Origin: Alteromonas sp. BL110
GTDB lineage: Bacteria; Pseudomonadota; Gammaproteobacteria; Enterobacterales; Alteromonadaceae
Length of the DNA: 64,000 nucleotides
Direction of reading: 5' to 3'
NCBI RefSeq assembly: GCF_003443615.1
Contig: NZ_CP031967.1
Coordinates: forward strand, 1 to 64,000
Part shown: piece after piece, positions 1-46,519 of the stretch
Layout: each line of letters opens with the position of its first letter
Position numbering within the stretch: position 1 is the stretch's first letter
Position numbers and translations under genes: made by a program
The notes under the pieces: model-generated
Told to the model about the DNA's origin: nothing
What the model saw: only the letters and a program-made list of their open reading frames with translations
Database searches by the model: none

Positions 1-408
1 CGTTTGCGCAAGTTTTGCCGGTGTTAGCTTATTAATTAAAGGCGTATGTTTAGCAAACTTAAAGAAATAACTCAGGGGACCAACAACTAACGGCGGGTCG
101 AACAAAATAACGCCCCTAAATAGTTCAGGCGCCTCACAGGCCGCCATGTAGGTGATTACCGCACCAAACGAATGCCCTACACCAAAGACACCACGCGGAT
201 CCTTATTTTCCTTCCTAATGTGTTTTATGAGTTCTTGAACTTGGTTGCGCCAGTTGCCATTCACTGGAAGCTGAGGGTCATGCCCAAAGCGCTCAACGTG
301 TAAACGATTGAAGTGGCTAGGTAACGCCGAAAACATTGCATTATAACTGCCCGCAGGAAACCCGTTTGCATGGGCAAAATGAAAACTCAACTCAGACGAT
401 GACACCAA
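1..408 (-). CDS. Alpha/beta hydrolase, partial (3' end outside the window)
   Basis: I translated this by hand because it runs off the left edge. About 135 residues of the N-terminal part are present. The frame reads HFAHANGFPAGSY near the start, a typical oxyanion-hole region of alpha/beta hydrolases, and contains the nucleophile elbow GHSFG with its serine, followed by VILFDPPLV. The catalytic Asp and His would lie beyond the window. Two adjacent start codons are possible, TTG at 408 and GTG at 405; an AAGGAG ribosome site lies a few bases upstream, and GTG has the better spacing. Substrate cannot be told. It is transcribed in the same direction as the MFS transporter upstream, about 70 bases away, so the two may be co-transcribed. 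Confidence 0.8.
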   Translation of the reverse strand, partial: MVSSSELSFHFAHANGFPAGSYNAMFSALPSHFNRLHVERFGHDPQLPVNGNWRNQVQELIKHIRKENKDPRGVFGVGHSFGAVITYMAACEAPELFRGVILFDPPLVVGPLSYFFKFAKHTPLINKLTPAKLAQT

Positions 409-475
409 TAAACTCCTTCAACTTCAAACAATAAAGGGCCTATAATCAGCCCCTTATCATGAAAGGTCGATAATA

Positions 476-1798
476 CTACAAGCCCCTAGATTCTGCCATT
501 TCCCAATCTTTGACAATTTTAGTGCTTGTCCATAAGAACACGGCAATTGAAATGGCGTAAGGAACTACCAGGTAAATCAGTGCTTGCCTTAATGCCTCTG
601 TTTCGCCTAATGAAGGCACGAGCGCTTGGCTTATTATACCGGTAAGTGTAGGTCCTCCACCTAACGCAATGATATTCAAAACAAAGAAGAAGAGTGCCGT
701 TGACATCGCCCTTACGTTTATCGGCGCAAGGGTTTGTGCCATCGCAAAACTTGGCCCTAAGTAAGACCCACTTGTAAATAACAGCAGCGCCATTAGTCCA
801 ACAGATAACCACAAATCTTGAACTTGTAACGATGCATAAAAGGCAGGTACGCCGATGATAAGCGCGATAGCAGGCAATAACGCATAAGCTTTCTTATTGT
901 GCTTACCCCATCTGTCAGCAATATAACCACCTAGCCACACGCCCAATGCATAAGCGGTACCGTTAATAATACCAAATACAATAAGAAGCTGAGTTATATC
1001 AAGACCTGCAAATGCTCGAACATAGTAATCAATGACCCATGTCGATATTGCATAGTTACCGAACGAACCAAATGAAATGCCTAATGCCATCCCCCACCAC
1101 GTAGGTATTTTTAGCAGCATTTTCAATGACGATTTAACACTCGGCTTATTAGCGTCATCCGCACTTGGTGCAGAAACTGTTCTAACGGGCTCTCTTACTG
1201 TCAACTTCAGCAAAATAGCCAGTAACACGCCTGGTATACCCACGCTATACATTACCGTACGCCAGTCAGCAGACCCGCCCTGTAAAAAGAATGCTGAGGC
1301 AAAAAACGCCAGCATCACACCAAATGGAATGCCTAAAGAGTATATTGCAAGCGCTCCCGCACGTTTTTCTTTAGGAAAAAGATCGGAAATTATACTGTGC
1401 GACGGTGGGCTTCCCCCAGCCTCCCCAATACCAACACCAATACGAGCAATAGCAAGTTGCATATAGTTGGCTGCCAAACCAGATGCGGCAGTAAAACCAC
1501 TCCAGAGTGTTAATGATATTGCGATGATATTTACGCGGCTATAACGGTCTGCAAGCCACGCAATTGGAATACCCATTACGGTATAAAGTAGCGCGAAATA
1601 GATACCTTTAAGCCATCCCAACTGGGCGTCATCTAACCCTAAGTCAGCTTTAATAAAGGGCGATAATATTCCAATAATTTGCCTATCTATAAAGTTAAAG
1701 GCATACACCAAGGTTAATATGAACAGAACGTAATTGCGGTAACTTCTAGATGTTCCAGCTTCGTTAGCAGGAATACCTTCAACGTGCGTATGGGCCAT
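476..1798 (-). CDS. Major facilitator superfamily transporter (spinster-like)
   Basis: This 440-residue polytopic inner-membrane protein has about 12 hydrophobic segments. The first helix carries NFIDRQ (residues 35-40), and an MFS motif-A-like loop, GIPIAWLADRYSR, lies at 76-88. RIGVGIGEAGGSP in helix 4 is characteristic of the spinster/sugar-phosphate-like MFS branch. A hydrophilic central loop near residues 205-225 separates the two six-helix halves. An AAAAGGACTG ribosome site precedes the ATG. The substrate cannot be assigned from sequence. The neighbours, an alpha/beta hydrolase downstream and a divergent acyl-CoA-thioesterase-like gene, hint weakly at an organic-acid or lipid-related substrate; that is inference only. 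Confidence 0.88.
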   Translation of the reverse strand: MAHTHVEGIPANEAGTSRSYRNYVLFILTLVYAFNFIDRQIIGILSPFIKADLGLDDAQLGWLKGIYFALLYTVMGIPIAWLADRYSRVNIIAISLTLWSGFTAASGLAANYMQLAIARIGVGIGEAGGSPPSHSIISDLFPKEKRAGALAIYSLGIPFGVMLAFFASAFFLQGGSADWRTVMYSVGIPGVLLAILLKLTVREPVRTVSAPSADDANKPSVKSSLKMLLKIPTWWGMALGISFGSFGNYAISTWVIDYYVRAFAGLDITQLLIVFGIINGTAYALGVWLGGYIADRWGKHNKKAYALLPAIALIIGVPAFYASLQVQDLWLSVGLMALLLFTSGSYLGPSFAMAQTLAPINVRAMSTALFFFVLNIIALGGGPTLTGIISQALVPSLGETEALRQALIYLVVPYAISIAVFLWTSTKIVKDWEMAESRGL

Positions 1799-1967
1799 AA
1801 CAGTCCTTTTGAGTGACGATGGCCCAGTCTACGCACCTGGTAAAAAAATAAACAACTAATTGTTACTTATTTGTTAACATAACGGAAATTTCTAACATAG
1901 GCTTTTCGTTCTATAGCGCTTAAGGTAGGATGACAACCACTTAACTCATCAGACCAGATACAACACT

Positions 1968-2783
1968 ATGACAGTAGATGAATTGCTTAATATTCCTCAA
2001 TTATCACAAACATCGGAAAATACCTGGAAGGTTGACGGGTTAGTCATTCCCAAAACCTGGGGACAAGGACGTACGGCATTCGGCGGTATTTCTGCTGGCA
2101 TGCTTTATACCGCTGTGAAGCAACAAGTGACTGATAATCGTGTACTACGCTCTTTTACTACTAATTTTGTTGGCCCTTTATCGCTCGAAGCCCCCTTTTC
2201 TATCGAAGTTACCCTATTGAGAACGGGTAAGAATGTCTCGCAATATACTGCGCATGCCATTCAAGACGGCAAAAGCTGCGTCTTTTCCCAAGCTTGTTTC
2301 GGGGTTGCAAGAGAATCTGGTATTAAGGTAGAGAATAGGGAAAAGCACGATATGCCTTTGCCTAATAAAGCGAAGTTCATTCCGCAAATACCTAAGGTTA
2401 CGCCAAAATTTTTACGTTACTTTGATTTAGCCATTGAAGATGGCGGTATCCCATTTACGCGCAGAAAAACCAGTCACTACCACGGCTTCATGCGGTTTAA
2501 ACAAGCACCTGAAGCGATAACTGATGCGCACATCATTACCATGATCGATGCTTGGCCGCCCACGCTATTGCAAATGATGAAGTTGCCGGCACCGGCTAGC
2601 ACGGTTAGCTGGAATTTAGAATTTATCCACCCGCATAGACCAGTAAGCCCTACTGATTGGTTCGGCTACAAAGCCCATACAAGGCAGGCGGCTGACGGTT
2701 ATGGCCATACGGAAGCGACGATTTGGGATAAAGATAACGAAGTGATAGCAATTAGCAGACAAACCGTAGCGATTTTCGATTAA
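1968..2783 (+). CDS. Acyl-CoA thioesterase-like double-hotdog protein
   Basis: At 271 residues it has the size of TesB-like double-hotdog thioesterases. The N-terminal hotdog shows GRTAFGGISAGML (about residues 35-47) followed by the strand pair SFTTNFVGPL and IEVTLLRTGKNVS. The C-terminal hotdog contains WNLEFIHPHRP, equivalent to the strand carrying substrate-pocket residues. The expected reaction is hydrolysis of an acyl-CoA thioester in the cytoplasm; chain-length preference is unknown. The gene is divergent from the MFS gene, with about 170 bases between them holding both promoters. A perfect inverted repeat overlaps its stop codon. It could be only a thioesterase-fold protein without activity. 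Confidence 0.8.
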   Translation: MTVDELLNIPQLSQTSENTWKVDGLVIPKTWGQGRTAFGGISAGMLYTAVKQQVTDNRVLRSFTTNFVGPLSLEAPFSIEVTLLRTGKNVSQYTAHAIQDGKSCVFSQACFGVARESGIKVENREKHDMPLPNKAKFIPQIPKVTPKFLRYFDLAIEDGGIPFTRRKTSHYHGFMRFKQAPEAITDAHIITMIDAWPPTLLQMMKLPAPASTVSWNLEFIHPHRPVSPTDWFGYKAHTRQAADGYGHTEATIWDKDNEVIAISRQTVAIFD

Positions 2784-2792
2784 TCGCTACGG
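2764..2792 (+). terminator. Stem-loop over the thioesterase stop codon
   Basis: An 11-bp perfect stem (CCGTAGCGATT at 2764-2774 pairing with AATCGCTACGG at 2782-2792) closes a 7-base loop at the end of the thioesterase gene. No clear T-tract follows on either strand, so its role as an intrinsic terminator is uncertain; it may instead protect the mRNA 3' end between convergent genes. Confidence 0.4.
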
Positions 2793-2821
2793 CAATATCT
2801 ATGATTAGAGGCTATTAAGTC

Positions 2822-3667
2822 TTAGTAAAGCATAAACGCGTTAGGGTTAAACAGTGAGATAACCGAAATACATTGAAGATTGGTTATGTCTAGCGCGTCT
2901 TCCAAATCCTCTCGATTTAGCGATAACGCCTCGTGCATCTCAGGTTTTAAATTGTGATAGCTTGGGTAAATTTCTGGGTTTACATTGTCTAGCGCTAGCA
3001 CGTAAGAAAGCTGTAGAATTTTCTCTTCTACACCTGTGTCTGCTTCTTCGCCTCTGTGAATACTGGCGATAGGCGTGTAAATTGAACTAGGGATACCCCA
3101 TTTTTCAATCAGTTTTGCCGAGAGTTCTGCGTAAGTAAACCCCAACACGCCAAATTGAAGCTCGGCGGGGCTTACCCGTGCGTTAAACGCCTGGCAACGG
3201 GTTGCTGACTCAGGCATTAACGAAACGGTAACTAGCTCCCCGATATTGTGAAGTAGCCCAGAAACAAAGAGTCTTTCAGGCTCTCTGATATTACGCATAT
3301 CGGCGAAGTACTTGGCTAGTAACCCACAAGATACACTTTGTTCCCAGAACTTATCTAAGTCTACTACTTGGCCATCCACATCGCTAAATGCCTGACTTAC
3401 CCCATAAGCCAACGCTAAGTCGTAGGTAGAACGGGTACCCACAACCTGAATAGCCCTTGTAATCGTGTCAATTTTGTTGGGAAAACGATAGAGCGCTGAG
3501 TTTGCCACTCTGAGTAACTGGGTGGCCAATGACGGGTCGAAAGCAATGATATCGCCAATATCGTCAATGCTTGAAGCTTCATCATCCATACAAGCTTTAA
3601 GTCGCGTTACCGAATCTGGTAAAACAAAGAGGTCTTCCGCTTTCGAAACTAATTCATCTAAATTCAT
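2822..3667 (-). CDS. HDOD domain protein
   Basis: This 281-residue soluble protein consists almost entirely of one HDOD domain (about residues 10-205). Family signatures include LPDSVTRL, then FDPSLATQLLRVANSALY, then AIQVVGTRS and LFVSGLLHNIGELV. HDOD proteins are relatives of HD phosphohydrolases that lack the full metal-binding set and act as regulatory scaffolds in signalling, often linked to c-di-GMP, motility or stress. No output domain is attached, and the last 70 residues are helical without a recognised domain. It is convergent with the thioesterase. Partner and signal cannot be read from the sequence. Confidence 0.88.
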   Translation of the reverse strand: MNLDELVSKAEDLFVLPDSVTRLKACMDDEASSIDDIGDIIAFDPSLATQLLRVANSALYRFPNKIDTITRAIQVVGTRSTYDLALAYGVSQAFSDVDGQVVDLDKFWEQSVSCGLLAKYFADMRNIREPERLFVSGLLHNIGELVTVSLMPESATRCQAFNARVSPAELQFGVLGFTYAELSAKLIEKWGIPSSIYTPIASIHRGEEADTGVEEKILQLSYVLALDNVNPEIYPSYHNLKPEMHEALSLNREDLEDALDITNLQCISVISLFNPNAFMLY

Positions 3668-4156
3668 TCGTGCACTCTCTTCAATGCAGTCTCTGTCATT
3701 GTTGTGTTCAAGGCATCTCCTTTCGCCATGACCTACAATAAGGTATAGGCGTTAAAACTGAGGAGGTCAATTAATATTACCTAGTAAAAAAGTATGATTT
3801 CTTTACTAATCAGAAGGTTAAAAAGTCTAAAAAAGTAATGATTAATTGATTACTCTCGAAGAGTATAGGCTGTTTCTCCAACTCTGAGCATTATCAGTTG
3901 TGGTAATACCGTAAGCTACCAAGCCCCACTGGTATCCCTTAAAAAAGTTGAAGCGTTGCGTATTATAACTAGCAGCTTGTTTTTACAAACCTAAAATTCT
4001 ATTTCAAAGAAAAACTTAGGGTAATTACCTATAAGAATTAGAATTTCTAAGGCACACCCCCTTTAAGCAATAGCGGTCCGTGTTTTGTGATAATATTTGC
4101 CGCAACATAACAGTGCAGTTCAGGCACATTTTTTAATAAGAGTTGTAATCCATACC
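3668..4156. other. AT-rich intergenic region, no gene seen
   Basis: About 490 bases separate the divergent HDOD and glycosyltransferase genes. I find no convincing coding frame, tRNA or terminator here. The stretch is rich in A/T runs and must hold promoters for both flanking genes, but I could not single out a reliable -35/-10 pair. An upstream TTG at 4097 would extend the glycosyltransferase by 20 residues lacking family character, so I treat 4097-4156 as untranslated. Confidence 0.5.
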
Positions 4157-5455
4157 ATGTTAAAAGTTGTTGTAGTCGGCTATGTGTGGCCAGAGCCAAA
4201 TTCCTCCGCAGCAGGACAGAACATGCTGTCTATTATTGATCGATGCTTAGCCGCTAACTTCAACGTGACTTTCTTAACAGCTGCTACCGATAGCGAGCAC
4301 AAAGCCGATCTTCAAGCAATGGCGGTAAATGTTCAGCCTGTCGCGCTAAACTGTAGTTCGTTTAATACTCTTATAGCAGACTTAGCCCCAGACGTAGTTG
4401 TTTTCGACCGCTACATGACTGAAGAACAGTTTTCTTGGCGAGTAAAAGAAGTTTGCCCGGATGCACTTAGAGTGCTTAACACTGAAGATTTGCATAGTCT
4501 TCGCCAAGCAAGACATGAGGCGGTCAAAAAGCATGGCGACCCTAGCCTAGCGCACTTGCATAGCGAACTGGCCCAAAGAGAAATTGCATCCATTATTCGA
4601 AGCGATCTGACCTTGGTAATTTCAAAAAAAGAAATGTCTTTATTGATTGAGCACTACGGTGTACCTTCAGCGCAACTTCAATACCATCCACTTGTAGTTG
4701 GTCGGTCTATTAGCTCCACGCCATCATTCGAACAACGCTCACACTTTATCCATATTGGTAATTTTCGCCATGCGCCCAACTGGGACGCAGTTTTGCAGTT
4801 AAAGCAGCATCTGTGGCCTTCAATCAAAAAAGCGTTGCCCCATGCTGAATTACATATCTTCGGTGCTTACCCACCTAAGAAAGCAACGCAACTTCACAAC
4901 GAGAAACAAGGCTTTTTAGTGAAAGGCTGGACGAAGGATGTCGAGTCTGTAATGACGAATGCCAAAGTCCTTATTGCCCCCTTGCGGTTCGGCGCGGGCG
5001 TAAAAGGAAAGCTGCTAGATGCGATGCGCTGCGGCACGCCTAGCATCACAACCTGGATTGGCGCAGAAGGTATTGCTCAAAATAACATTGATGCAAATAG
5101 TGATATGAGAGCAATAGAAGGAGACAACACCGCACATTTTCAGTCTACACTGTGGCCTGGTGCCTTATGCGATACTGATACTTCTAAAGCAACCGTTGTT
5201 CAAGACTATGTTGCTAAATCCGTAGCGCTTTATGAAGATGAAAAAGCCTGGAATTTAGCAAATCACCAAGCTGCCAGTGCGCTTAACGCGTTTAGACAAC
5301 AGCAACCGCAAGTGTCGCTTATTGAGAGAATAAGTGAGTTGAAACAAGAGCTTGATAATCATAGAAGTACTTTGTTTATGCAAAGCTTGTTGTGGCATCA
5401 GACGCTTGCTGCTAGCAAATATATGAGTCAGTGGATTGAGGCGAAGAACAAATAG
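4157..5455 (+). CDS. Glycosyltransferase, GT4-like (GT-B fold)
   Basis: The protein is about 432 residues from the ATG at 4157, where the GT-B Rossmann start VVVVGYVWPEPNSSAAGQ begins. A TTG at 4097 opens the frame earlier but adds an atypical tail. The C-terminal half has HIGNFRHAPNWDAV and the donor-site region FGAGVKGKLLDAMRCGTP, typical of group-1 transferases. The last 60 residues are helical and have no match I recognise. It presumably moves a sugar from a nucleotide donor to a glycan or lipid acceptor in the cytoplasm. It stands alone, 25 kb from the polysaccharide island, so its pathway is unknown. The 3' end is convergent with sufE, 18 bases apart. Confidence 0.8.
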   Translation: MLKVVVVGYVWPEPNSSAAGQNMLSIIDRCLAANFNVTFLTAATDSEHKADLQAMAVNVQPVALNCSSFNTLIADLAPDVVVFDRYMTEEQFSWRVKEVCPDALRVLNTEDLHSLRQARHEAVKKHGDPSLAHLHSELAQREIASIIRSDLTLVISKKEMSLLIEHYGVPSAQLQYHPLVVGRSISSTPSFEQRSHFIHIGNFRHAPNWDAVLQLKQHLWPSIKKALPHAELHIFGAYPPKKATQLHNEKQGFLVKGWTKDVESVMTNAKVLIAPLRFGAGVKGKLLDAMRCGTPSITTWIGAEGIAQNNIDANSDMRAIEGDNTAHFQSTLWPGALCDTDTSKATVVQDYVAKSVALYEDEKAWNLANHQAASALNAFRQQQPQVSLIERISELKQELDNHRSTLFMQSLLWHQTLAASKYMSQWIEAKNK

Positions 5456-5473
5456 AGGAGCAAAAAGCTAGGC

Positions 5474-5866
5474 CTATGTGCCCTTCAACTTTGTGATCAC
5501 TGACTTTATCCCGTTTCCCCGCGATTGACTTAGATATCGCTCTAACTGGCAGCGAGACAAGTAACCTTCGAAGTCAAAATTACCACGCTGCGTGTCGGGC
5601 AAGGCATTAGCTTTTTCAAGCAAGACAGCAAGTACTCCACGAATTACCTTGCTTGGCGAGTACGCCATTAAACTGCCATGCTCAGTCGAATAAGCTAACC
5701 ACACAGGGCTTTCACAGCCTTCGACCGCAGTATCGGCAGTGCGTTCACTTTCAGGCAGAGGAGTTAGAGACTTACCCGCTAGCATAAGCGTGCGCGTGAA
5801 GTCATCCCATCCTTTTGAGGCGGCAAGCGAGGAAGCTAAAGGAAGTAAGGTATCATCCGAACTCAT
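5474..5866 (-). CDS. SufE-family sulfur acceptor protein
   Basis: At 130 residues it is close to the usual SufE/CsdE length. The diagnostic VEGCESPVWLAY contains the sulfur-accepting cysteine, Cys51, followed by the family core with SPSKVIRGVLAVLLEKAN and a C-terminal GNGIKSVITKLK. SufE proteins accept persulfide sulfur from a cysteine desulfurase (SufS or CsdA) for Fe-S cluster or tRNA-modification pathways. No desulfurase gene is adjacent, so I cannot choose between SufE and CsdE. It lies 16 bases after the DUF2750 gene on the same strand, probably as one transcript. Confidence 0.88.
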   Translation of the reverse strand: MSSDDTLLPLASSLAASKGWDDFTRTLMLAGKSLTPLPESERTADTAVEGCESPVWLAYSTEHGSLMAYSPSKVIRGVLAVLLEKANALPDTQRGNFDFEGYLSRCQLERYLSQSRGNGIKSVITKLKGT

Positions 5867-5882
5867 ATGCTAAACGCCCAGA

Positions 5883-6278
5883 TTAATTACCGCTTATTTC
5901 GGCAGCCAAATCTTCTGCGGTCATAACTAGGTTTTCAACGTCACTTGTAGTTGGAAACATAACCAGTTCCACGCCATTTTTAGTAAGACCAGGCAGCCAA
6001 GTTTCTGCAAATTCGGCTAGCTCAACACTTACGCATTGGCCTTCTATTTCGTTTATGTCTACGAACTTTTGCGCGAGATCGCGATGTGGAAACACAGGTA
6101 ATTGAACACTCTCGCCGCCTTCGAACATAACAAAGCCTTCACTGCCCTGTATCATCCATATTTCTTTTGCTTTCGCTATATAGCTAACAACAAGCTCTTG
6201 TCGTTCTTCAGCACTTAGCTTCATCGCTTGCTCAATGACCGCATAGCTCAACTTATCTGCAATTGTTTCTGGAAACAC
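5883..6278 (-). CDS. DUF2750-like protein of unknown function
   Basis: This small acidic cytoplasmic protein (131 residues) starts with GTG at 6278, preceded by AGGTGA at good spacing. The pattern WMIQGSEGFVMFEGGESVQLPVFPHRDLA followed by AEFAETWLPGLTKNGVELVMFPT resembles the DUF2750 family, whose function I do not know. (The first motif is split here as WMIQGSEGF and VQLPVFPHRDLA.) There are no membrane segments and no catalytic motif. It is the promoter-proximal gene of a likely two-gene unit with sufE. The 38-bp repeat array begins about 75 bases upstream of its start, so its promoter must lie in or next to that array. Confidence 0.65.
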   Translation of the reverse strand: MFPETIADKLSYAVIEQAMKLSAEERQELVVSYIAKAKEIWMIQGSEGFVMFEGGESVQLPVFPHRDLAQKFVDINEIEGQCVSVELAEFAETWLPGLTKNGVELVMFPTTSDVENLVMTAEDLAAEISGN

Positions 6279-6353
6279 GTTTATTCACCTATCTCAAAAT
6301 TTCGGGCAAGTATACCCGCACCAGCAAAAGGCGCAATGCAATAGTCACCAAAA

Positions 6354-6700
6354 CCTCTCTTGCAAAGACACCCATGCTAAGCAGCAAACCACCCTTACAA
6401 TGACACCCTTACAATGACACCCATGCTTAAAGCAACAAACCCACCCTTACAATGACACCCACGCTAAAAGCAACAAACCCACCCTTACAAAGACACCCAC
6501 GCTTAAAGCAACAAACCCACCCTTACAAAGACACCCACGCTTAAAGCAACAAACCCACCCTTATAAATACCCCCATGCTTAAAGCAACAAACCCATTCTT
6601 ACAAAGACACCCATGCAAACTACTAATCAAACGAGAAAATTTGAAATTAACTCGCTTTTCTTCAATTCACTACCGGTTACAAAGACACCCATGCTAAAGT
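6354..6700. repeat. 38-bp tandem repeat array with GACACCCA core
   Basis: Successive units start at 6405, 6443, 6481, 6519, 6557 and 6595, an exact 38-bp period. A diverged unit begins near 6354, a 14-bp partial unit lies at 6391-6404, and an isolated core copy sits at 6684. Each unit reads ACCCTTACAAAGACACCCA then YGCTTAAAGCAACAAACCC. Units differ at a few sites (AATGAC for AAAGAC, CAC for CAT). There are no unique spacers, so it is not a CRISPR array. The period is not a multiple of three, so it is not a coding repeat. It occupies most of the divergent intergenic region between the DUF2750 gene and the heme-oxygenase-like gene. Confidence 0.95.
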
Positions 6701-6751
6701 AAAGCCAAATCGATAATGACTAGAAAGCTACAACGCCAAGATATTTAAACC

Positions 6752-7435
6752 ATGCGCAATCTTTTCACTGCACTTAAGCAAGACACCCAGGCAAACCACA
6801 GTGTTTTGGAAAACACGTTTCCCTTTTCTATTTATCACGATGATAGTTTGTTCGATGAAAAGGCATATCTCGCTATTCTAAAGATCATGAGTATGTTCCA
6901 CCAGGCTGCGGCAGAAGCTGTGCAGCAAGCAGAACTCAGAGCTCCAGCGCTTACACCAATAGCATCGATGATAAACAGTGATGTAATTCAAAACGCGTTA
7001 AATAAAGACATTCTTGCGCTTACCAAAAGTTCGCTTACCAGAGACACCCACGCTTCAGATACATACAAAACCAAGGCTTACGCAGACATCCACCCCAATA
7101 AACCATCTACCTTAAGCAGCAACTCGCCAACCAGCCAAGCTATATCGGCCATATACGTCTGGTTAGGCTCATCAATGGGAGCGAATATCATTGTACGCAG
7201 GTTAAACGCCATGGAGCGCGATATACCCACAAACTATTACCAAGCGATGGCGGGGTGTGCGAAAGCATGGGTGTCATTCAAACAAGAAGTCGATAGGCTA
7301 ATCCCTAAACTCGGTCTAGAAGATGAAGCCTTTGTTGCAGATGCAGTGACAGATGCGAACGCATGGTTTACATACCTGATTTCATTAGCCGATGTTGTCG
7401 TACACGACGCCACGCAGGCGGTTGCGGTTAACTAG
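6752..7435 (+). CDS. Heme-oxygenase-like protein
   Basis: This soluble, mostly helical 227-residue protein resembles bacterial heme oxygenases. The N-terminus LKQDTQANHSVLE matches the helix carrying the proximal-His region (His16 candidate), and YVWLGSSMGANIIVRRL near residue 135 matches the distal-helix glycine-rich region. If active it would open heme to biliverdin using reductant and oxygen. No phytochrome gene is next to it. Residues of about 92-126 look like an insertion made of polar, low-complexity sequence; it includes a DNA copy of the neighbouring GACACCCA repeat at 7043. Further copies of the octamer lie at 6782 and, inverted, 7268. Heme binding is unproven, and a non-enzymatic member of the fold is possible. 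Confidence 0.65.
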   Translation: MRNLFTALKQDTQANHSVLENTFPFSIYHDDSLFDEKAYLAILKIMSMFHQAAAEAVQQAELRAPALTPIASMINSDVIQNALNKDILALTKSSLTRDTHASDTYKTKAYADIHPNKPSTLSSNSPTSQAISAIYVWLGSSMGANIIVRRLNAMERDIPTNYYQAMAGCAKAWVSFKQEVDRLIPKLGLEDEAFVADAVTDANAWFTYLISLADVVVHDATQAVAVN

Positions 7436-7440
7436 GATAG

Positions 7441-7461
7441 CGCTGCCTGAAGCAGCGTTTA
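7441..7461 (+). terminator. Weak stem-loop after the heme-oxygenase-like gene
   Basis: A 6-bp GC stem (CGCTGC at 7441-7446 with GCAGCG at 7452-7457) closes a 5-base loop just after the stop codon and is followed by TTTA only. The stem suits a terminator, but the T-tract is poor. Confidence 0.4.
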
Positions 7462-7670
7462 GCCTCCTCTTTAAAAGGAAACTTTTCCCGTAGCAATTCC
7501 TTTCTCCTGCCCCCTTGGGCGTTATTTCAGGTTATTCATAGCCATATAGCTATAAATAAACTTAATCCAGTCAATCGCCTGAATGCATTAATATATTGGC
7601 AGTTCTTCGTTAAGCGTCCGCTTAGTTTCTGATAGAATTGATGTAACGTTGAAACAACAAAAATATAAGC

Positions 7671-8477
7671 ATGAAAGTAATCTCATTTAATATAAACGGC
7701 ATACGCGCCCGCTTGCACCAACTACAAGCGGTTATCGACGCACATCAACCAGATATTATTGGTTTGCAAGAAATTAAGGTCCACAACGAGCAGTTTCCAG
7801 TTGAAGCAGTGGAAGCCATGGGCTACCACGTTTATTTTCATGGTCAAAAAAGTCACTATGGCGTAGCGTTTTTGGCAAAGAAAGAACCGCTTTCTGTAAC
7901 TATGGGTTTTCCCACCGATGACGAAGACGCGCAGCGTCGAATGATCATGCTAAAAACCACCGACGAAACTGGCGAGCCTGTAACCATCCTTAACGGTTAC
8001 TTTCCTCAAGGTGAGAACGAAAAACACGAAACAAAATACCCTGCTAAGCGCAAGTTTTATAAAGACTTAATGACGTATTTGAATGAAACCCACACGCCGG
8101 ATGAGAACGTAATTGTGATGGGCGATGTGAACATTTCCCATACGGATCTCGACATTGGCATTGGCGAAGAAAACAAAAAGCGCTGGCTAAGAACAGGTAA
8201 GTGCAGCTTTTTACCGGAAGAGCGCGAATGGTTGAATACGCTCATGGACTGGGGTTTTGAGGATAGCTTTAGAACACTTAACCCAGAATCTAATGACAAG
8301 TTTTCGTGGTTTGATTATCGCTCAAAAGGCTTTAACGATAACCGCGGCCTGCGCATAGACTTGATTCTGGCTACAAAAGCTTTGCATTCACGTCTGCACG
8401 ACGCTGGGATTGACTATGAATTAAGAGGCATTGAAAAGCCATCTGACCACGCCCCAATTTGGGCTGAATATAAATAA
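7671..8477 (+). CDS. xthA: Exodeoxyribonuclease III
   Basis: It is 268 residues, the same length as E. coli XthA. The endonuclease/exonuclease/phosphatase fold is clear: FNINGIRAR at 6-14 with metal-site Asn, LQEIK with Glu34, [13 protein letters not shown] with Asp152 and Asn154, and the C-terminal SDHAPIW with the catalytic His near 260. The enzyme repairs abasic sites and removes blocked 3' ends in the cytoplasm, using Mg2+. No strong Shine-Dalgarno precedes the ATG. The gene is monocistronic, or is followed by the membrane protein 45 bases downstream. Confidence 0.97.
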
Positions 8478-8522
8478 TAGTTGGCCGATAGCAAATAGAG
8501 TAGCGCCGATTAAGGAGTAACA

Positions 8523-9164
8523 GTGAGTTCATTACAGTTGTTGGCATTGCTGATTTATGGCGCGTTTTTATTGGGCGCGGTTAAGCATATCGACTTTACT
8601 CACTTTGCTCGCAATAAGCTGCAGCAACACCTTATGTTCGGCACTGCTGCCTCTTTATTTGTGCTTTGGTTGTTTAAAGCAGGTATTTTTGAAGGCCTAG
8701 ACGTACATTTTCTAGGCCTATCTGTTCTCACTCTTATGTTGGGCTTTAGAAACGCGATCATTGCTTCTTTTATCGCGCTTTTGGGTGCAAATTTAATAGG
8801 TTATGGTACATGGGAAAACTTCGGTGTTAATGGCCTGCTTGGAACTATCTTGCCTATTGGAATAACCTACCTTTTCTATATGTTGTCTTTCCACCGCATA
8901 CCCAGGCAACTCTTTGTGTATATTTTTGTGTGTGCTTTTTTTCCTGCAGCACTTTCAATCGCTCTTAAAACATTATCGCTGGGTGCCTTCTACTATTTTG
9001 AAGGTACATACACATGGGACATCGTTTTTGATAACTACATTTTACTCATCCCGCTATTAGTGTTTCCAGAAGCTCTTTTGAATGGAATGGCTATTACCCT
9101 ACTCGTTATCTACCAGCCGACGTGGGTGTATACCTTCCACGACAAATTTTATCTCGATAATTAA
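8523..9164 (+). CDS. Predicted membrane protein, CbiM/COG3235-like
   Basis: This 213-residue polytopic membrane protein has about six hydrophobic segments and starts with GTG after AAGGAG. The sequence LTLMLGFRNAIIASFIALLG and the late PLLVFPEALLNGMAIT resemble proteins annotated as energy-coupling-factor-type permeases (COG3235, distantly CbiM-like). A typical ECF permease has ATPase partners; none is adjacent, so transport and substrate are unknown. The C-terminal 20 residues are polar and probably cytoplasmic. Confidence 0.65.
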   Translation: MSSLQLLALLIYGAFLLGAVKHIDFTHFARNKLQQHLMFGTAASLFVLWLFKAGIFEGLDVHFLGLSVLTLMLGFRNAIIASFIALLGANLIGYGTWENFGVNGLLGTILPIGITYLFYMLSFHRIPRQLFVYIFVCAFFPAALSIALKTLSLGAFYYFEGTYTWDIVFDNYILLIPLLVFPEALLNGMAITLLVIYQPTWVYTFHDKFYLDN

Positions 9165-9274
9165 GCCCTCTACCCATTAGTCACTTCATTTATTGAACTT
9201 ATTAAACTAATAGTTAATAAGCTTTTCCCAATTTCAATCTATGATTAGAGTGAGAAGTTCAGTGGTAGAGCTAG

Positions 9275-10450
9275 ATGAATATTCAGACACTTGCTTTAGA
9301 GTGCGATGGTACTGTGAGCGTAGCATCGCAACTAGAAAATATTTTAACCAATAAACGGCCTTCATTACTCCTTGGTTACGGTAACACTGACTTACCATTA
9401 GAAACGCTTGCATCGGCCATTGGCGATGCTGCGCCACCATTTTTTATCTCAAGTTCCTGCTTAGGCGCGTTGCTTTGCGATGACAACATAGCCTCGCCCC
9501 ACTGTGACGTTGCTTTGTTCTGCATAAATGATGACAACGGGGCCTACGGTGTTGGCAGCGCTGACATAGCTGAAAGCACACCATTTGAGGCGGGAGCAAC
9601 TGCATTGAAGGAAGCATTGGCGCACGCCGAGAGGCCTTATGAGAGCCCAGCACTTATATGGTGTTCGCTTCCCCCAGGCAATGAAGAGAGAATACTTGAG
9701 GGTTTTGCTAGCATTGTCGGAACAAAGGTACCCATCTTTGGGGGCTCAATGGCAGACAATACTGTTTCAGGTAATTGGCGCATAGTCACTAAAACATGTT
9801 CAGGGTCTCAAGTCGTTGCCGCGGCAGTTTTGTATCCTTCAACGCCGCTTGGCTTAAGTTATAGCTCTGGTTATAAACCTACCGAAACCGTGCTTAAAGC
9901 CACAAAAGCGCAAGGAAGGCAACTTCAACAACTCGATAATGATAAAGCGAGTACTATCTACAATGTTGCGACAAACGGCCTGATTTCAAACCAGCTAACA
10001 GGCGGGCAAATATTAGGACTTACGTCATCGGCTCCTTTAGGCAAGCCTGTTGAACTAGACAATGGCGCGGTTAACTATCTTCTTTGCCACACCGACTCGG
10101 TAGACCAGGATGGCACCCTTCATGTTTTTTCCGAAGTCCAAGAAGGCGAAGAACTGGTATTAATGGAAGGCAATATTTCTAGTCTCACCTCCCGTGCAGA
10201 ACGGGTTATTAATAATGCAATCATGCTGCTTCCGGAAAACAAGAAGCCTGTTGGCGTATTGATGATCTATTGCGCCGGATGCAGATTAATGGTGGGCGAT
10301 GAGATAAACGCTATGTTGAACTCATTGCAAGAAACGTTTCCCTCGATACCTATTTGTGGCCCTTTTACTTTTGGCGAACAAGGGCGTTTTTTAGACGGTA
10401 AGAATAGACACGGTAACCTTATGATATCAGCGGTAGTGTTTTCTCAATGA
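9275..10450 (+). CDS. FIST domain sensory protein
   Basis: The 391 residues carry a FIST N domain (about 25-215) and a FIST C domain (about 220-375). Key stretches are LLLGYGNTDLPLETL, then VPIFGGSMADN in the middle, then MIYCAGCRLMVGDEI and PICGPFTFGEQGR near the end. FIST proteins are thought to bind small ligands, possibly amino acids, and to feed signalling proteins. The stop codon overlaps the start of a histidine kinase (ATGA), so this is probably the input half of a two-gene sensory unit. No signal peptide or transmembrane segment is seen. Confidence 0.9.
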   Translation: MNIQTLALECDGTVSVASQLENILTNKRPSLLLGYGNTDLPLETLASAIGDAAPPFFISSSCLGALLCDDNIASPHCDVALFCINDDNGAYGVGSADIAESTPFEAGATALKEALAHAERPYESPALIWCSLPPGNEERILEGFASIVGTKVPIFGGSMADNTVSGNWRIVTKTCSGSQVVAAAVLYPSTPLGLSYSSGYKPTETVLKATKAQGRQLQQLDNDKASTIYNVATNGLISNQLTGGQILGLTSSAPLGKPVELDNGAVNYLLCHTDSVDQDGTLHVFSEVQEGEELVLMEGNISSLTSRAERVINNAIMLLPENKKPVGVLMIYCAGCRLMVGDEINAMLNSLQETFPSIPICGPFTFGEQGRFLDGKNRHGNLMISAVVFSQ

Positions 10451-11889
10451 ATAAAGATTACGAAAATGTCTTAGAAGACTTAGCCCTTGTTTACCGCTTG
10501 AAGCAGCAAGCTGAGGCGTATAAAAAAGAAAGCGATGCATTGTTAGAAGGCACGCGGGTGCTGCTTACCGCCGAGGATGAAGCAGATCTTTTCAAAAAGA
10601 TGTTTAGTGTTTTTAAAGGGCTTTATAATTACGAAGCATGCTTCGTTCTTCAGAACGAAAGTGCGGGTAAAATGAGATGCGTAAACAGTACCCATGCACC
10701 TTTACTCAACACTGTTTGGAAGATAGACGATACACTTTCTAGAGCAGTCAAAAGTGAACCCGTTGCATTATTTAACGTTCAACAACAGCCTACTTGGCAA
10801 CAGCACTTGCCATTATTTGAGACTCCCGTCACATCAGTACTCTATTGCCCGTTTAAAGTAGATCAGCAGCAGGCCGTTATTGTTTTTTGCCATCAATCGC
10901 TGGGTTACTACACCCGAGAATACGTAGATATGGCCAATAGGTATCGTACCTTCACCGAGCAAATGGCAATGGGGATGCAGGCAAAATTAATGACACTTGA
11001 AACCGTAAGGTTGAAAGAAGAAAAAGCTAAAGTAGAAAAAAGCCTTATCGATTCTGAAAAAATGGCCTCTCTAGGATTATTGGCAGCAGGCGTGGCTCAC
11101 GAAATTAATAACCCTGTAGCATTTATCAACAGTAACATTCATTTTTTAAGGAACGTATTGCCTGCTCTCTCTCAAATGCAAGACATAGTGCTGAGGTTGG
11201 CATCCAGCGTTAGCGATGAAGAAAGAACAAAGTTAGCCCAAGAAGCAATGTTGTGGCAATCACACAATAAGATTGATTCACTAAGTGAAGAAATTGCAGA
11301 TATTTGTGGGGAATCTGAAGAAGGCTTAAACAGAGTAACTGATATAATCACCAGCCTTCGTTCATTTTCTCATGATGCAGACATCCCTGATGACGAAACT
11401 ATCAACGTAAATGATTGTATTGCACATGCTCTAAGGTTAGTTAATAGCGAATTAAAGCACCGCATTAAAATACAGCAGCACCTAACAGAGGTCCCTTTAA
11501 TTAAGGGTAAAACAGGAAAGTTGAATCAGGTGTTGGTTAACCTTTTTGTCAATGCTGCGCAAGCGATGGAAGATGGTGACAAGCTAACCATATCTTCTTT
11601 TGAAGACGACAATCATACTGTTATCACTGTTAAAGATACGGGTTGTGGTATCGAAAAACATGCCCTGCAAAAGCTTTTCGAGCCGTTTTACACCACTAAA
11701 CCTACCGGTAAAGGGACTGGGTTAGGTCTTTATATTTCTTTTTCTATTGTTGAAGCTATGGGTGGCACTATTGGCGTTGATAGTGAAGTTAACGTGGGCA
11801 CTACGTTTACCCTCTCGTTTCCAACGAATTTAGCCAATAAAAAAACCGCACAATCGTGCGGTTTAGATACGTTCGATAGCAATTCGTAA
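10447..11889 (+). CDS. Soluble sensor histidine kinase with GAF-like domain
   Basis: The 480-residue protein overlaps the FIST gene by 4 bases. An N-terminal coiled segment leads into a GAF-like region (about 40-175). A coiled coil at 183-205 precedes the HisKA dimerisation helix with GVAHEINNP, phosphoacceptor His218. The HATPase domain shows NLFVNAAQAMED (N box), DTGCGI (G1) and GKGTGLGLYI (G2). There is no transmembrane segment, so it is cytoplasmic and likely senses through the FIST partner. No response regulator follows. The last 20 codons overlap a hairpin that serves as terminator for the convergent gene, giving an unusual C-terminal tail. Confidence 0.93.
   Translation: MNKDYENVLEDLALVYRLKQQAEAYKKESDALLEGTRVLLTAEDEADLFKKMFSVFKGLYNYEACFVLQNESAGKMRCVNSTHAPLLNTVWKIDDTLSRAVKSEPVALFNVQQQPTWQQHLPLFETPVTSVLYCPFKVDQQQAVIVFCHQSLGYYTREYVDMANRYRTFTEQMAMGMQAKLMTLETVRLKEEKAKVEKSLIDSEKMASLGLLAAGVAHEINNPVAFINSNIHFLRNVLPALSQMQDIVLRLASSVSDEERTKLAQEAMLWQSHNKIDSLSEEIADICGESEEGLNRVTDIITSLRSFSHDADIPDDETINVNDCIAHALRLVNSELKHRIKIQQHLTEVPLIKGKTGKLNQVLVNLFVNAAQAMEDGDKLTISSFEDDNHTVITVKDTGCGIEKHALQKLFEPFYTTKPTGKGTGLGLYISFSIVEAMGGTIGVDSEVNVGTTFTLSFPTNLANKKTAQSCGLDTFDSNS
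11834..11864 (-). terminator. Intrinsic terminator of the phosphoribosyltransferase gene
   Basis: AAACCGCAC (11843-11851) pairs with GTGCGGTTT (11856-11864) around a 4-base loop. Read on the minus strand the stem is followed by a run of Ts, a classic intrinsic terminator about 50 bases after the phosphoribosyltransferase stop. It lies inside the last codons of the convergent histidine kinase. On the plus strand only TTTAGA follows, so termination there would be weaker. Confidence 0.8.
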
Positions 11890-11912
11890 CGGCTACTAAA
11901 GCTATATAGCGG

Positions 11913-12476
11913 CTACTTTTGGAACAAAATATCCATTACGTCAGCCAACTCGCCTTTTCCTTCGCGAATCTCTTCTTCTGACAAACCAGCAATTTCGTGA
12001 GGAAATACTAGCCATTCATCACTTTCGTTTACGTAGTAATCTGGCACGATATCAGTAGTGTTGTTTTGAGGCTTATACCACGGGCACGCTATGCGAATAT
12101 CTTTTGGCATGTTTAAGCGCATTAGCTTATTGATTTGCTTGATAAGCGCATCAACACTTCGGCCTGAGTCAAAAACATCATCAACAATCAATAACTTGTC
12201 GTCAGCGTTGGCATTTTCAACCAAGTAGTGTAACCCGTGCACACGGATTTCTTTCGACTGTTTATTGATTCCATAGTAAGACGAAGTACGTACCGCGATA
12301 TGGTCGGTTGACGTATCTTTAAATTCAAAGAATTCTTGAACTGCGATACCAATTGGAGCACCACCACGCCAAATACCGATAATAAAGTCAGGGCGGAAGC
12401 CGTCTTCATACACCTTTGCCGCTAAGCGAAAGGAATCCTGTAGAAGCGATTGCGAGGTGATAAAATTCTTGTTCAT
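11913..12476 (-). CDS. Hypoxanthine-type purine phosphoribosyltransferase
   Basis: This 187-residue type I phosphoribosyltransferase has the PRPP-binding loop KLLIVDDVFDSGRS at 94-107 and the early IIGIWRGGAPIGI loop at 32-44. The Tyr-rich flexible loop VRTSSYYGIN lies between them. Such enzymes convert hypoxanthine, guanine or xanthine plus PRPP to the nucleotide. The C-terminal extension DEWLVFPHEIAGLSEEEI resembles stand-alone phosphoribosyltransferases of the xanthine/hypoxanthine group, so base preference is not certain. It starts 77 bases after the LolC/E-family gene on the same strand and may share its transcript. Confidence 0.82.
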   Translation of the reverse strand: MNKNFITSQSLLQDSFRLAAKVYEDGFRPDFIIGIWRGGAPIGIAVQEFFEFKDTSTDHIAVRTSSYYGINKQSKEIRVHGLHYLVENANADDKLLIVDDVFDSGRSVDALIKQINKLMRLNMPKDIRIACPWYKPQNNTTDIVPDYYVNESDEWLVFPHEIAGLSEEEIREGKGELADVMDILFQK

Positions 12477-12553
12477 GACGTCTCACTGAGCAAATTTTAA
12501 AAGACCGCGAGTATAGTGAATTTCACGGTCTTTTGCACGGTAAATTCAACTAT

Positions 12554-14035
12554 TTATTCGTTTTGAAGAGCTTGCGACGGTGCAATTTTCATCGCTTTGC
12601 GCGCAGGATAAACGCTAGCTAAAACACACAGCAGCAAAGACAATAACGTAATGCTGATAATCTGCACGACGTCCATTTCAATAGGCAGTCCTCTTCCATC
12701 AGCTGCAAGTGCTAAGGGTGAACCTATTACGTCCAGAATATTATTTAGCTGAAGAGTAATAAAGACACCCAAGATAAGCCCTATACCTGCACCTTTTATA
12801 CCATTAAATAAGCCATTTAATACGAAAATCCACATTACCGAGCTGGGCAACATGCCCTGAGTTTGCAGTACCGCAATATCACCCTGCTTTTCGGTTACCA
12901 CCATTACCAGTGCAGACACTATGTTAAACGCCGCTACAGCAATAATAAGTAGCAACATAAGTGTCATCATGTTCTTTTCCATTTTTACTGCATCAAATAG
13001 CGGCCCCTGGCGCTCACGCCACGTTCTAATATTATTTACAGAGACACCCACCCTATCAGTTAATTGATCAACCACAGTTTGGTAGTTAAACGCGTCATTC
13101 AGAAAGAAACGCAATGATTGTTCGTTTCCCTTTGGGTCGCGCATTAAGCGATTCACATCATCAAGGTTCATGTACATTACCTTGTCATCCATTTGCGAGC
13201 CCATATCGAAGACACCCACTACAGTCACAAGCCGCTGACTTGGCATTCTTCCAAACGGTGTAAAAACGCTGGCCCCTGCAACCATAACTCGCAGCCTATC
13301 TCCCACACGCGCTTCAAGCTTAATAGCAAGAGAACGCCCAATAATAGCTGCGAAGCTGCCTTTAGCGAGGTCACTGAATCGACCTTGTTCCATATGGTTT
13401 GCAACTAAGGTGTGCTCAAGCATCACATCTGGCTGAACACCGTGAACCTGCACGCCACGCAAGTCTGAGCGTGACTGCACTACGGCTTCCGCTTCTCTGT
13501 AATCCATACTGGCAACAACGCCTTCGATGGGTGTCATGCTAATTTCATTTAATGATAGGGGTTTAGGTTCGGTAGCTTTTTGGGTGGGTGTCTCTGTAAG
13601 CTCCGCAGTTTTTCTGACCTCTTTGACATTGGGTGTCTGGCTAAGTTTGTCGGTTGTGATGGGTGTCTTTGTAGCTTCATTTGCAACTTCTTTTTGCGTG
13701 GGTGTCCCGCTAAGACTGTTTTGCATCTTTAACGTGGGTGTCTCTGCAACTTCTTTTTGAATGGGTGTCTTGCTAAGGCTGTTGCTTGCAATGGGTGTCT
13801 TTGTAATTTCGATGGGTGTCTTTGTAATTTCGATATGCGGGACTATGCCTAGTATGCGCTGTTTTAATTGCCCTTCTAGGCCGTTCATTACGGATACGAC
13901 AATAATAAGCGCCATTAGCCCTAGCGCGATGCCGGCCACTGAAAATCGGTTAATAAATGAAACGAAACTGGTTTGGCTTGCTTTGTTAGACTTGGCATAA
14001 CGATAAGCAATGAATGCAGAAAGAGGATAAAACAT
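12554..14035 (-). CDS. LolC/LolE-family lipoprotein-release permease with repeat-derived insertion
   Basis: The N-terminus FIAYRYAKSNKASQTSFVSF and first membrane helix (about 33-50), then MNGLEGQLKQRILGIVPHI, are typical of LolC/LolE. Three more membrane helices sit in the last 130 residues, ending in VYPARKAMKIAPSQALQNE (FtsX family). With LolD and a second permease, such proteins pull lipoproteins from the inner membrane for LolA. The usual length is about 400 residues; this one is 493. The excess is a segment at about 69-168 with nine Thr-Pro dipeptides (73, 80, 90, 99, 111, 124, 134, 149, 168), placed just where the periplasmic domain begins. No lolD gene is adjacent. Confidence 0.88.
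   Translation of the reverse strand: MFYPLSAFIAYRYAKSNKASQTSFVSFINRFSVAGIALGLMALIIVVSVMNGLEGQLKQRILGIVPHIEITKTPIEITKTPIASNSLSKTPIQKEVAETPTLKMQNSLSGTPTQKEVANEATKTPITTDKLSQTPNVKEVRKTAELTETPTQKATEPKPLSLNEISMTPIEGVVASMDYREAEAVVQSRSDLRGVQVHGVQPDVMLEHTLVANHMEQGRFSDLAKGSFAAIIGRSLAIKLEARVGDRLRVMVAGASVFTPFGRMPSQRLVTVVGVFDMGSQMDDKVMYMNLDDVNRLMRDPKGNEQSLRFFLNDAFNYQTVVDQLTDRVGVSVNNIRTWRERQGPLFDAVKMEKNMMTLMLLLIIAVAAFNIVSALVMVVTEKQGDIAVLQTQGMLPSSVMWIFVLNGLFNGIKGAGIGLILGVFITLQLNNILDVIGSPLALAADGRGLPIEMDVVQIISITLLSLLLCVLASVYPARKAMKIAPSQALQNE
13528..13820 (-). repeat. In-frame GACACCCA repeats inside the LolC/E-family gene
   Basis: On the minus strand GACACCCA occurs nine times, at plus-strand starts 13528, 13585, 13630, 13660, 13699, 13735, 13762, 13792 and 13813. 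Every interval (57, 45, 30, 39, 36, 27, 30, 21) is a multiple of three, and each copy is read in the same frame as x-Thr-Pro-Ile/Thr/Asn. Similarity to the 6.4-kb array extends past the octamer: ACAAAGACACCCAT is shared, and GACACCCACG-TTAAAG near 13735 parallels GACACCCACGCTTAAAG. Flanking sequence also repeats locally (CAAAAAGAAGTTGCA twice). Confidence 0.92.
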
Positions 14036-20191: not shown

Positions 20192-20263
20192 GAGTTTGCG
20201 AGTTTGCGAGTTTGCGAGTTTGCGAGTTTGCGAGTTTGCGAGTTTGCGAGTTTGCGAGTTTGC
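20192..20263. repeat. Nine perfect tandem copies of an 8-bp unit
   Basis: GAGTTTGC is repeated exactly nine times (72 bases) between csiV and the cobalamin adenosyltransferase gene, ending 62 bases before the ATG at 20326. Perfect octamers of this kind are prone to slipped-strand mispairing. Because 8 is not a multiple of 3, open frames crossing it change phase with copy number; neither strand has a frame here that I consider a gene. Confidence 0.97.
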
Positions 20264-45847: not shown

Positions 45848-46519
45848 ATGCTAACCGCTGTTCGCTCGGCTGTTGTTGTAGGTCTTACTTTACTTGCGGT
45901 TACATCGCCAATCGCCCAACAAAAAACCGTTTTCACACCGCAAGTTTATGACCGTATAGGCTCAATTTATGGAACTGAAGCTAGCGAAGACGTTGCTAAA
46001 TGGCGACAATTGGTTGATGAGTTACAGAGCGAAGATCTAGACGAAAAGCTTTATCAGATAAACCGCTTTTTTAACCGTTTTGATTTTGTAGACGACCTTG
46101 TTCACTGGCAACAAAAAGACTATTGGGCAACGCCAATTGAGTTTATTTCTACGGGTGCTGGCGACTGTGAAGACTACACTATTGCCAAATACTTCTCTTT
46201 AATTGAACTTGGCGTTCCTGAACAACAGTTGCGATTAATGTATGTAACCGCCCTAGAATTACGCCAACCTCACATGGTTTTGGCGTATTATGAAACCCCA
46301 ACCTCTATTCCACTTGTTTTGGATAATATAAATAGGCGTATATTGCCTGCTAATAAAAGAAGAGATTTGTCACCCATTTATAGCTTTAATGGTAACGGCC
46401 TGTGGGCTGCGAAAGCTATGGGAACGGGCCGCAAGCTGAGGGGAAGCGGCCCGATGAAGATGTGGGACGATATGGTAGAGCGGCTAGACCGCGTTATGTA
46501 CGGAGATAAAGAAGAATAA
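45848..46519 (+). CDS. lapG: LapG-type periplasmic cysteine protease
   Basis: From ATG 45848 the protein has 223 residues, with a signal peptide (VVVGLTLLAVTSPIAQ). The transglutaminase-like catalytic triad is visible: Cys107 in GAGDCEDYTIAKY, His142 in RQPHMVLAY, and Asp159 in LVLDNINRRI. LapG proteases cut the N-terminal anchor of large LapA-type adhesins to release cells from biofilms, and are held inactive by LapD when c-di-GMP is high. The stop overlaps the lapD start by one base (TAATG). No LapA adhesin gene is in the window. Confidence 0.92.
   Translation: MLTAVRSAVVVGLTLLAVTSPIAQQKTVFTPQVYDRIGSIYGTEASEDVAKWRQLVDELQSEDLDEKLYQINRFFNRFDFVDDLVHWQQKDYWATPIEFISTGAGDCEDYTIAKYFSLIELGVPEQQLRLMYVTALELRQPHMVLAYYETPTSIPLVLDNINRRILPANKRRDLSPIYSFNGNGLWAAKAMGTGRKLRGSGPMKMWDDMVERLDRVMYGDKEE

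Follow-up and report, generated by a model that had tools for sequence, protein, structure and literature searches.

A short polar word around a RAYT-like Y1/HUH transposase gene of Alteromonas is very probably the recognition site and terminal inverted repeat of the enzyme

The genome of Alteromonas sp. BL110 is a single contig of 4,458,618 bp, of which the first 64 kb form the window analysed here; 384 kb around base 1 were examined. The window contains 23 exact copies of the octamer GACACCCA on its two strands, of which 22 fall into two clusters, at 6367–7275 and 12764–13820, with one stray copy at 51948, while 100 dinucleotide shuffles yielded a mean of 0.89 copies and a maximum of 4. An earlier note, made from the sequence alone, had recognized both the clustering and the rarity of the word by chance, and these stand, with its figures (22 copies, 21 of them clustered, and about two expected per 64 kb) revised to those given above. 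Outside the window, 10.6 kb to the left of its first word, lies a RAYT-type Y1/HUH transposase gene, the element to which the word is related below.

Seven plus-strand copies (6367, 6416, 6454, 6492, 6530, 6606, and 6684) occupy an intergenic stretch at 6367–6691, partly as a tandem array of 5.5 copies of a 38-bp unit (6404–6613). The plus-strand heme-oxygenase-family gene at 6752–7435 (Pfam Heme_oxygenase) carries two sense words (6782 and 7043) and one antisense word (7268). The second cluster lies in a minus-strand gene for a LolC/E-type lipoprotein-release permease (12554–14035; FtsX and MacB_PCD domains), which holds 12 words. Nine are in-frame sense words within a variable insert or at its end (13528–13820, minus strand, with ...KTPI/ETPT... 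in the protein) and face the transposase gene, while three are antisense, on the plus strand: one at 13211–13218 in codons conserved in an alignment of relatives (GTG GGT GTC in the sense direction), and exact matches at 13043–13050, also in LolC/E codons, and at 12764–12771. The tandem array, both gene identities, the in-frame expansion, and the opposite-orientation words were proposed in the earlier note and are borne out. The insert is not present in the aligned LolC/E genes of seven loci with no close transposase ortholog (L025, L026, L027, L029, L033, L034, and L035), and is also missing from that of L030, whose genome has a 54% transposase homolog. The wider context once suggested for the word, TTACARA...YGC, exists as a tendency and not as a fixed sequence: over 680 sites from all loci with GACACCCA, information outside the octamer is 0.3–0.7 bits at positions −7 to −5, −2, −1, +8, +11, and +12, and lower elsewhere.

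Across the genome, GACACCCA occurs 130 times compared with 96 for the reversed control word, and a single 48.5-kb domain holds 66 of these copies, the remaining 64 being scattered across 4.41 Mb. This domain of word excess, which has no strand of its own, runs from genome position 4,423,901 over the numbering origin to window position 13,820 (−34,717 to +13,820 relative to window base 1). Positions 1–13820 are the window's share, both window clusters forming the right edge of the domain, and the rest lies at genome 4,423,901–4,458,618 (L002 from base 5283, plus L001). The earlier note had allowed for background counts with the two window clusters as the only ones; further clusters lie at −34.7, −29.7 to −28.6, −15.0 to −14.5, and −12.8 to −2.1 kb. 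Fifty of the 66 domain words are within open reading frames (ORFs), which cover 43,362 of its 49,838 bases. An AraC-type regulator gene has 11 copies, arranged as a 39-bp array, an alpha/beta-hydrolase gene has nine, and a phytase gene has eight; a further six fall in a gene run including biotin carboxylase.

The transposase gene (genome 4,453,357–4,454,403, L001:14739–15785, plus strand) lies inside the domain and encodes 348 amino acids with the motifs NHVH, FWEGRF, and YVDLNP; listed homologs mostly have 323–339. Profile matches are significant though under the cut-offs (Pfam PF01797, 20.1 bits, cut-off 23; NCBIfam NF047646, 38.4 bits, cut-off 80), and the protein shows an HUH Y1 fold with the catalytic residues H, H, and Y. 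A PDB sequence search with the transposase profile returned nothing at E 0.01. The gene is under purifying selection; between the BL110 and A. portus genes synonymous divergence (dS) is saturated, so no ratio was obtained. By motifs, length, and host order rather than tree placement, the protein fits TnpAY1 subclass 2.3, described in the available text of Quentin et al. 2018 (PMC6006769) by WE and YVDLNP motifs, an NHYH-type HuH motif, about 325 amino acids, and hosts in Alteromonadales or Chromatiales. As far as that text goes, shared traits are the order Alteromonadales, the great length (median 325 compared with 348), WE and YVDLNP, and several unlike copies per genome, while the hydrophobic HuH residue is Y in the published table and V here. 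Three weak partial matches elsewhere in BL110 (2346704, 3694978, and 3036323; L130–L132; 34–39% over 60–73 residues) probably belong to other Y1 subclasses.

Homologous genes were sampled in Gammaproteobacteria (82 genes at 79 loci) together with 77 control windows, and the 16 words of the form GACANNCA were tested within 10 kb by a Poisson test corrected for 16, at 1e-3. A significant word accompanies 59 of the 82 genes and 2 of the 77 controls. Both positive controls (L030 and L031) come from genomes with 54–58% homologs, which, as coordinates suggest, apparently lie 8–9 kb past the locus end, and the homolog of L031 (P0024) is apparently on the same contig. The top 8-mer belongs to the GACANNCA frame (±1 base) at 53 of 79 loci and 2 of 77 controls. 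Unbiased 8-mer ranking at the ortholog placed GACACCCA first in eight of nine genomes and second in the other (G028), after the shifted overlap AGACACCC; a tenth locus, that of the 54% homolog of G026, gave no GACACCCA-like word. The same ranking gave GACAGGCA, GGACAGAC(A), and nothing clear at three BL110 paralogs, and nothing in three 40-kb control stretches of BL110. Most of 40 further loci from the genus carry GACACCCA, GACAGGCA, or GGACAGTC, and 8 of 21 loci from other genera are significant, one with 23 of 25 words facing the gene and another with 13 of 13. Across 59 genomes of the genus, the ratio of word to reversed word climbs as homologs become more numerous (Spearman 0.60, p 5e-7, BL110 being entered with 7 homologs, three of them weak partial hits), the mean being 0.79 in eight homolog-free genomes (range 0.59–0.98) and 1.59 in 18 genomes with six or more.

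Other repeats were observed near these genes. GACATCCA, a one-base variant, ranks second in number among the GACANNCA words near the BL110 gene, with 9 copies in 80 kb, and may be a nascent site or one that is tolerated. TACGACGC, which may be a further word family of these enzymes, faces the transposase gene in 12 of 12 copies at L252 (G466) and 6 of 6 at L245 (G261), and further arrays do so at L246 (G468; CTATCCTC, 13 of 13) and L248 (G373; CCGACAGC, 12 of 14). Interspersed repeats of about 100–500 bp are common to the transposase neighbourhoods of several genomes (L157–L158 of BL110, at about 271 kb, and L178, L189, L208, L173, and L188), with CTAGGGGA enriched at L157–L158 and L178.

The words have a consistent direction. 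At 43 one-gene loci with seven words or more, the 2.5 kb next to the gene hold about 1.4 words per kb on one side and 1.3 on the other, and the gene itself holds none. Within 5 kb, 371 words face the gene and 100 face away, and by locus 50 of 55 converge, 2 diverge, and 3 tie. When loci with common neighbours are pooled, 33 groups have a significant word and 29 of these converge (about 1e-5 by a two-sided sign test); the figure of 33 errs on the low side because the clustering joins loci sharing host genes despite different transposase offsets. A convergent word lies within 400 nt upstream of 71 of the 82 genes, downstream of 55, and on both sides of 48, with the divergent arrangement at 2, and random placement in BL110 control stretches gave convergent words in 6 of 5000 cases. 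Median distances of the nearest words from the aligned gene part are 101 nt upstream and 242 nt downstream, and additional copies extend to 10 kb, or about 30 kb at the BL110 locus. In nine within-genome copy pairs chosen from the tree, 8 of the 18 ends of the homologous block are no more than 4 nt from a convergent word, and 12 are no more than 14 nt away. For random ends the figures are 1.3 and 3.6, and neither observed count was reached in 5000 draws. Duplicated units thus tend to end at words, and the words therefore appear to act as terminal inverted repeats of a transposase unit.

Word identity follows the protein. Mapped onto the tree of all 82 proteins, the words of the 59 genes that have a significant one require 10 changes, compared with at least 17 in 300 shuffles and at least 12 in 300 within-genome shuffles. 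Of the alignment columns scanned, one separated the words cleanly: residue 171, which precedes the invariant W173 by two positions, is R in 37 of 37 CC-word genes and H in 9 of 9 GG-word genes, with six H and two R in the GT class. The prediction fixed before testing was that R gives C at N6, and that H gives G at N5 and not C at N6. The held-out set comprised 36 loci, many of them orthologs of training loci (20 fetched later and 16 of 30 earlier set-aside loci that lie outside the training set); a convergent word occurs at least twice at 33 of them, and the prediction was right at 29 of 31 R or H loci (R 21/23, H 8/8). Two held-out Y171 loci, for which no prediction was made, carry GACAGACA, as does the Y171 gene of BL110. 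In the model, residue 171 sits in a loop ahead of strand 176–182, in a block of mean pLDDT 68. Residues of E. coli TnpAREP that contact GTAG lie partly around strand beta4 and include Q95, according to the available part of PMC8266576, and from the published motif table the WE of the BL110 protein would correspond to W94-Q95.

The words are also maintained. Between BL110 and five orthologous domains, 43/47, 33/39, 23/26, 22/27, and 16/20 words are kept, compared with 43, 22, 19, 13, and 13% of all octamers, and word anagrams and flanking octamers are at or under background. The LolC/E codons GTG GGT GTC at 13211 are identical in BL110 and six relatives with a transposase ortholog, and nearby synonymous sites vary; L023, L030, and L031, in genomes with a 54–58% homolog, do not have this word. 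A. abrolhosensis (G102, L021) has no transposase ortholog (best match 50%; the site measures 150 bp compared with 1,353 in BL110), and a synonymous change to GTA breaks its LolC/E word. It keeps 12 of 25 BL110 words compared with 33/39 and 23/26 at like distance (p 0.004 and 0.003), and its 13 decayed words are off by one base in five cases, two in five, and more in three. Because of these remnants, A. abrolhosensis probably lost the transposase gene rather than never having it. Five more distant genomes with no ortholog have 0–2 words per 40 kb. Close relatives differ at 67 words (18 of 20 directed comparisons, the G009 pair being excluded; 268 words unchanged, 60 unaligned), by 43 substitutions (29 single) and 24 insertions or deletions, four of which resemble tandem duplications. 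Since substitutions dominate, selection or protein-dependent upkeep of words in place, with some tandem duplication, is favoured over dispersed insertion.

Two hairpin-related features were tried and rejected. For a hairpin with the word in its loop, the CC and GG arms are complementary in the consensus in one register, and within-locus shuffles of the right flank pair equally well (z 0.4 and 0.1); the next register reached z 2.5 for CC only (5 of 500 shuffles) and is not claimed as signal. GTAG lies within 30 nt of 9.9% of 972 words compared with 13.8% of 2,916 random places, and GTGG of 11.6% compared with 16.6%; on the other strand the values are 14.5% and 15.0% for GTAG and 23.0% and 18.0% for GTGG.

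From these sequence comparisons, we hold it very probable that GACACCCA is the recognition site and terminal inverted repeat of the RAYT-like Y1/HUH transposase (TnpAY1 subclass 2.3) encoded within the domain, and most likely this site comes with a halo of words kept in the surrounding host genes. The enzyme would read the word through the segment around residue 171, on single strands as in other HUH Y1 enzymes, and would cut or hold DNA there, moving as a unit bounded by a convergent word pair. Once a unit had settled, the flanking host DNA would gain words mostly by point change in place and tandem duplication, and these would be retained, since each would offer the resident protein a further end to use or site to bind. 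We would guess that words help the locus to be kept or transferred along with its flanks.

Several observations weigh against this reading. No significant word lies within 10 kb of 23 of the 82 genes; 13 of the 21 other-genus loci are among them, and other arrays are present at some of these word-negative loci. Four of the 33 word-bearing neighbourhoods are divergent, and the words of the 6.37-kb array in the window face away from the transposase gene, which is to their left. Six of the 18 unit ends have no nearby word, and the distance limits, 14 nt included, were set post hoc after the ends had been inspected. The weakly complementary flanking arms show no within-locus covariation in the consensus register. 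The retention counts take in array words, which align loosely, the loss comparison rests on a single genome (G102), and an aligned transposase stretch with one stop, possibly its natural end, is found in G099, G101, and G103, which keep the LolC/E word. Words do not visibly spread as dispersed inserts, 43 of 67 differences being substitutions. For residue 171, the two GT-class R genes are near-identical copies at G026_L187, scored GACAGTCA, a locus that also has a fragment and CC words, and both held-out misses pair R171 with GACACTCA. Residue and word have changed together on few independent branches (all four pairs agree, p=0.125, the lowest value that four can give), and for one locus in that comparison, G026_L185, the label was changed manually from GACACTCA to GACAGTCA once its convergent words had been seen.

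A possible if doubtful alternative is that the transposase copies word-bearing single strands nearby as miniature mobile elements of the repetitive extragenic palindrome (REP) or REPIN type, so that the halo is an insertion population. Its odds overlap with those of the recognition-site reading, because the recognition step is shared and only the origin of the words differs. The HUH Y1 fold agrees with this alternative, as do unit ends that fall on words and repeats that flank the gene as in known REPtrons. The words themselves argue otherwise: most differences between close relatives are substitutions in place (43/67), the LolC/E codons GTG GGT GTC align without gaps to other codons in relatives, 50 of 66 words are within coding sequence, and they have neither a covarying hairpin nor a GTAG foot.

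Polar chromosome-maintenance words read by a host protein, in the manner of Chi, KOPS, or parS, would likewise be short, polar, conserved, and tolerant of coding frame. Seen from the gene, the 3′ end of the G-rich strand TGGGTGTC faces outward, as it would for a Chi site acting on an enzyme arriving from outside. This origin is nonetheless improbable, as different paralogs in one genome have different words, the word follows a transposase residue, genomes with no copy of the gene show no excess, and the 384 kb examined around the domain showed neither a GC-skew switch nor, with up to 8 mismatches allowed, an E. coli-type dif. The spreading minisatellite of the earlier note, in which a short local repeat multiplies by slippage with no enzyme and the transposase is a bystander, would explain the tandem arrays (38-bp in the window; 11 x 39 bp in the AraC-type gene) and the tandem duplication apparent in some gains. 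It is very improbable given that words at unlike sites share only the core, that they mostly face the gene and are hyperconserved, that the same word classes surround the gene family in other gammaproteobacterial families and follow its tree, and that the residue-171 prediction succeeded on held-out loci. A genome-wide recognition word such as a DNA-uptake sequence, suggested by the fixed core on either strand and the tolerance of coding frame, which do stand, has next to no probability, because the 64 copies in 4.41 Mb outside the domain compare with 96 reversed words genome-wide and the word is below its reversed control in all eight homolog-free genomes (mean ratio 0.79, range 0.59–0.98).

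Two further repeats in the window are a set of nine perfect tandem copies of the 8-bp unit GAGTTTGC at 20192–20263, unrelated to GACACCCA, and two copies of a 21-bp unit (80% match) at 46413–46453.

A literature search, in which subscription papers were thinly covered, found no description of this association of word and transposase, and a whole-word search for GACACCCA, TGGGTGTC, GGACACCC, and GGGTGTCC gave only unrelated papers among the matches listed. Nor is the association described in the available portions of PMC6006769, PMC3733652, PMC3686654, PMC8266576, and PMC2386152. As far as these searches show, the word of subclass 2.3, its local and mostly convergent halo in coding DNA, its maintenance, and the one-residue code are new. 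The proposal would assign a DNA partner to a widespread class of domesticated transposases that has so far been an orphan, and it includes a specificity code that is directly testable. A transposase-linked mark that shapes the coding sequence of neighbouring core genes would bear on why bacteria keep RAYT genes, and low-complexity inserts, here in LolC/E, the phytase, the hydrolase, and the AraC-type regulator, would be word arrays and not protein features.

Among known systems, RAYT-REP and REPIN pairs (E. coli TnpAREP, PDB 4er8; PMC8266576, available text) share the HUH fold with its catalytic tyrosine, and in them, too, enzyme and site co-evolve. Most REPs are hairpins outside genes that carry a tetranucleotide foot and occur in many copies per genome, whereas the words are bare, local 8-nt cores mostly in genes; they have no GTAG/GTGG foot with a palindromic hairpin as in REPtrons, and in place of a genome-wide extragenic population about half of the copies lie in 48.5 kb, with 50 of 66 in ORFs. 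IS200/IS605 TnpA proteins (IS608, ISDra2) bind subterminal hairpins at both ends, according to the available text of PMC6006769, while the unit ends here are inverted words. The DUF1568 protein of Saccharophagus degradans, an apparent transposase in clusters of hypothetical genes, shares its domain name with some homologs of the BL110 protein (Paraglaciecola), and the available account (PMC2386152) describes no repeated word. The nearest known kind are the TIRtrons (TIRYT), in which a RAYT-like gene is accompanied by inverted repeats that have no relation to GTAG REPs and in some cases contain the motif GGGGWSAS (BMC Genomics 2013, PMC3733652, available part). The arrangement of a RAYT-like gene between such repeats is shared, with words on both sides within 400 nt at 48 of 82 genes, and the motif includes GGACA[CG], an overlap with the 5′ portion of the GGACANNCA words; taking this part of GGGGWSAS alone, the base before GACA is G in 25/25 GA, 62/69 GT, 229/756 CC, and 18/93 GG words. 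The published TIRtron account, in the part available, names no Alteromonas or Alteromonadales and gives no dense local halo, maintenance, code between word and protein, or loss-decay test. For TnpAY1 subclasses 2.1 and 2.3, automatic and manual searches found no REP-like sequences (Quentin et al. 2018, PMC6006769, available text), in contrast to the associated sequence identified here for subclass 2.3. On balance, we lean towards regarding as a new transposase–site system an HUH Y1 protein that would read a bare polar 8-nt word by a simple code (C at position 6 for R171; G at position 5, with a base other than C at 6, for H171; GA for Y171), would hold the codon choice of unrelated host genes over tens of kb, and of which each paralog would own a separate, self-pointing word territory.

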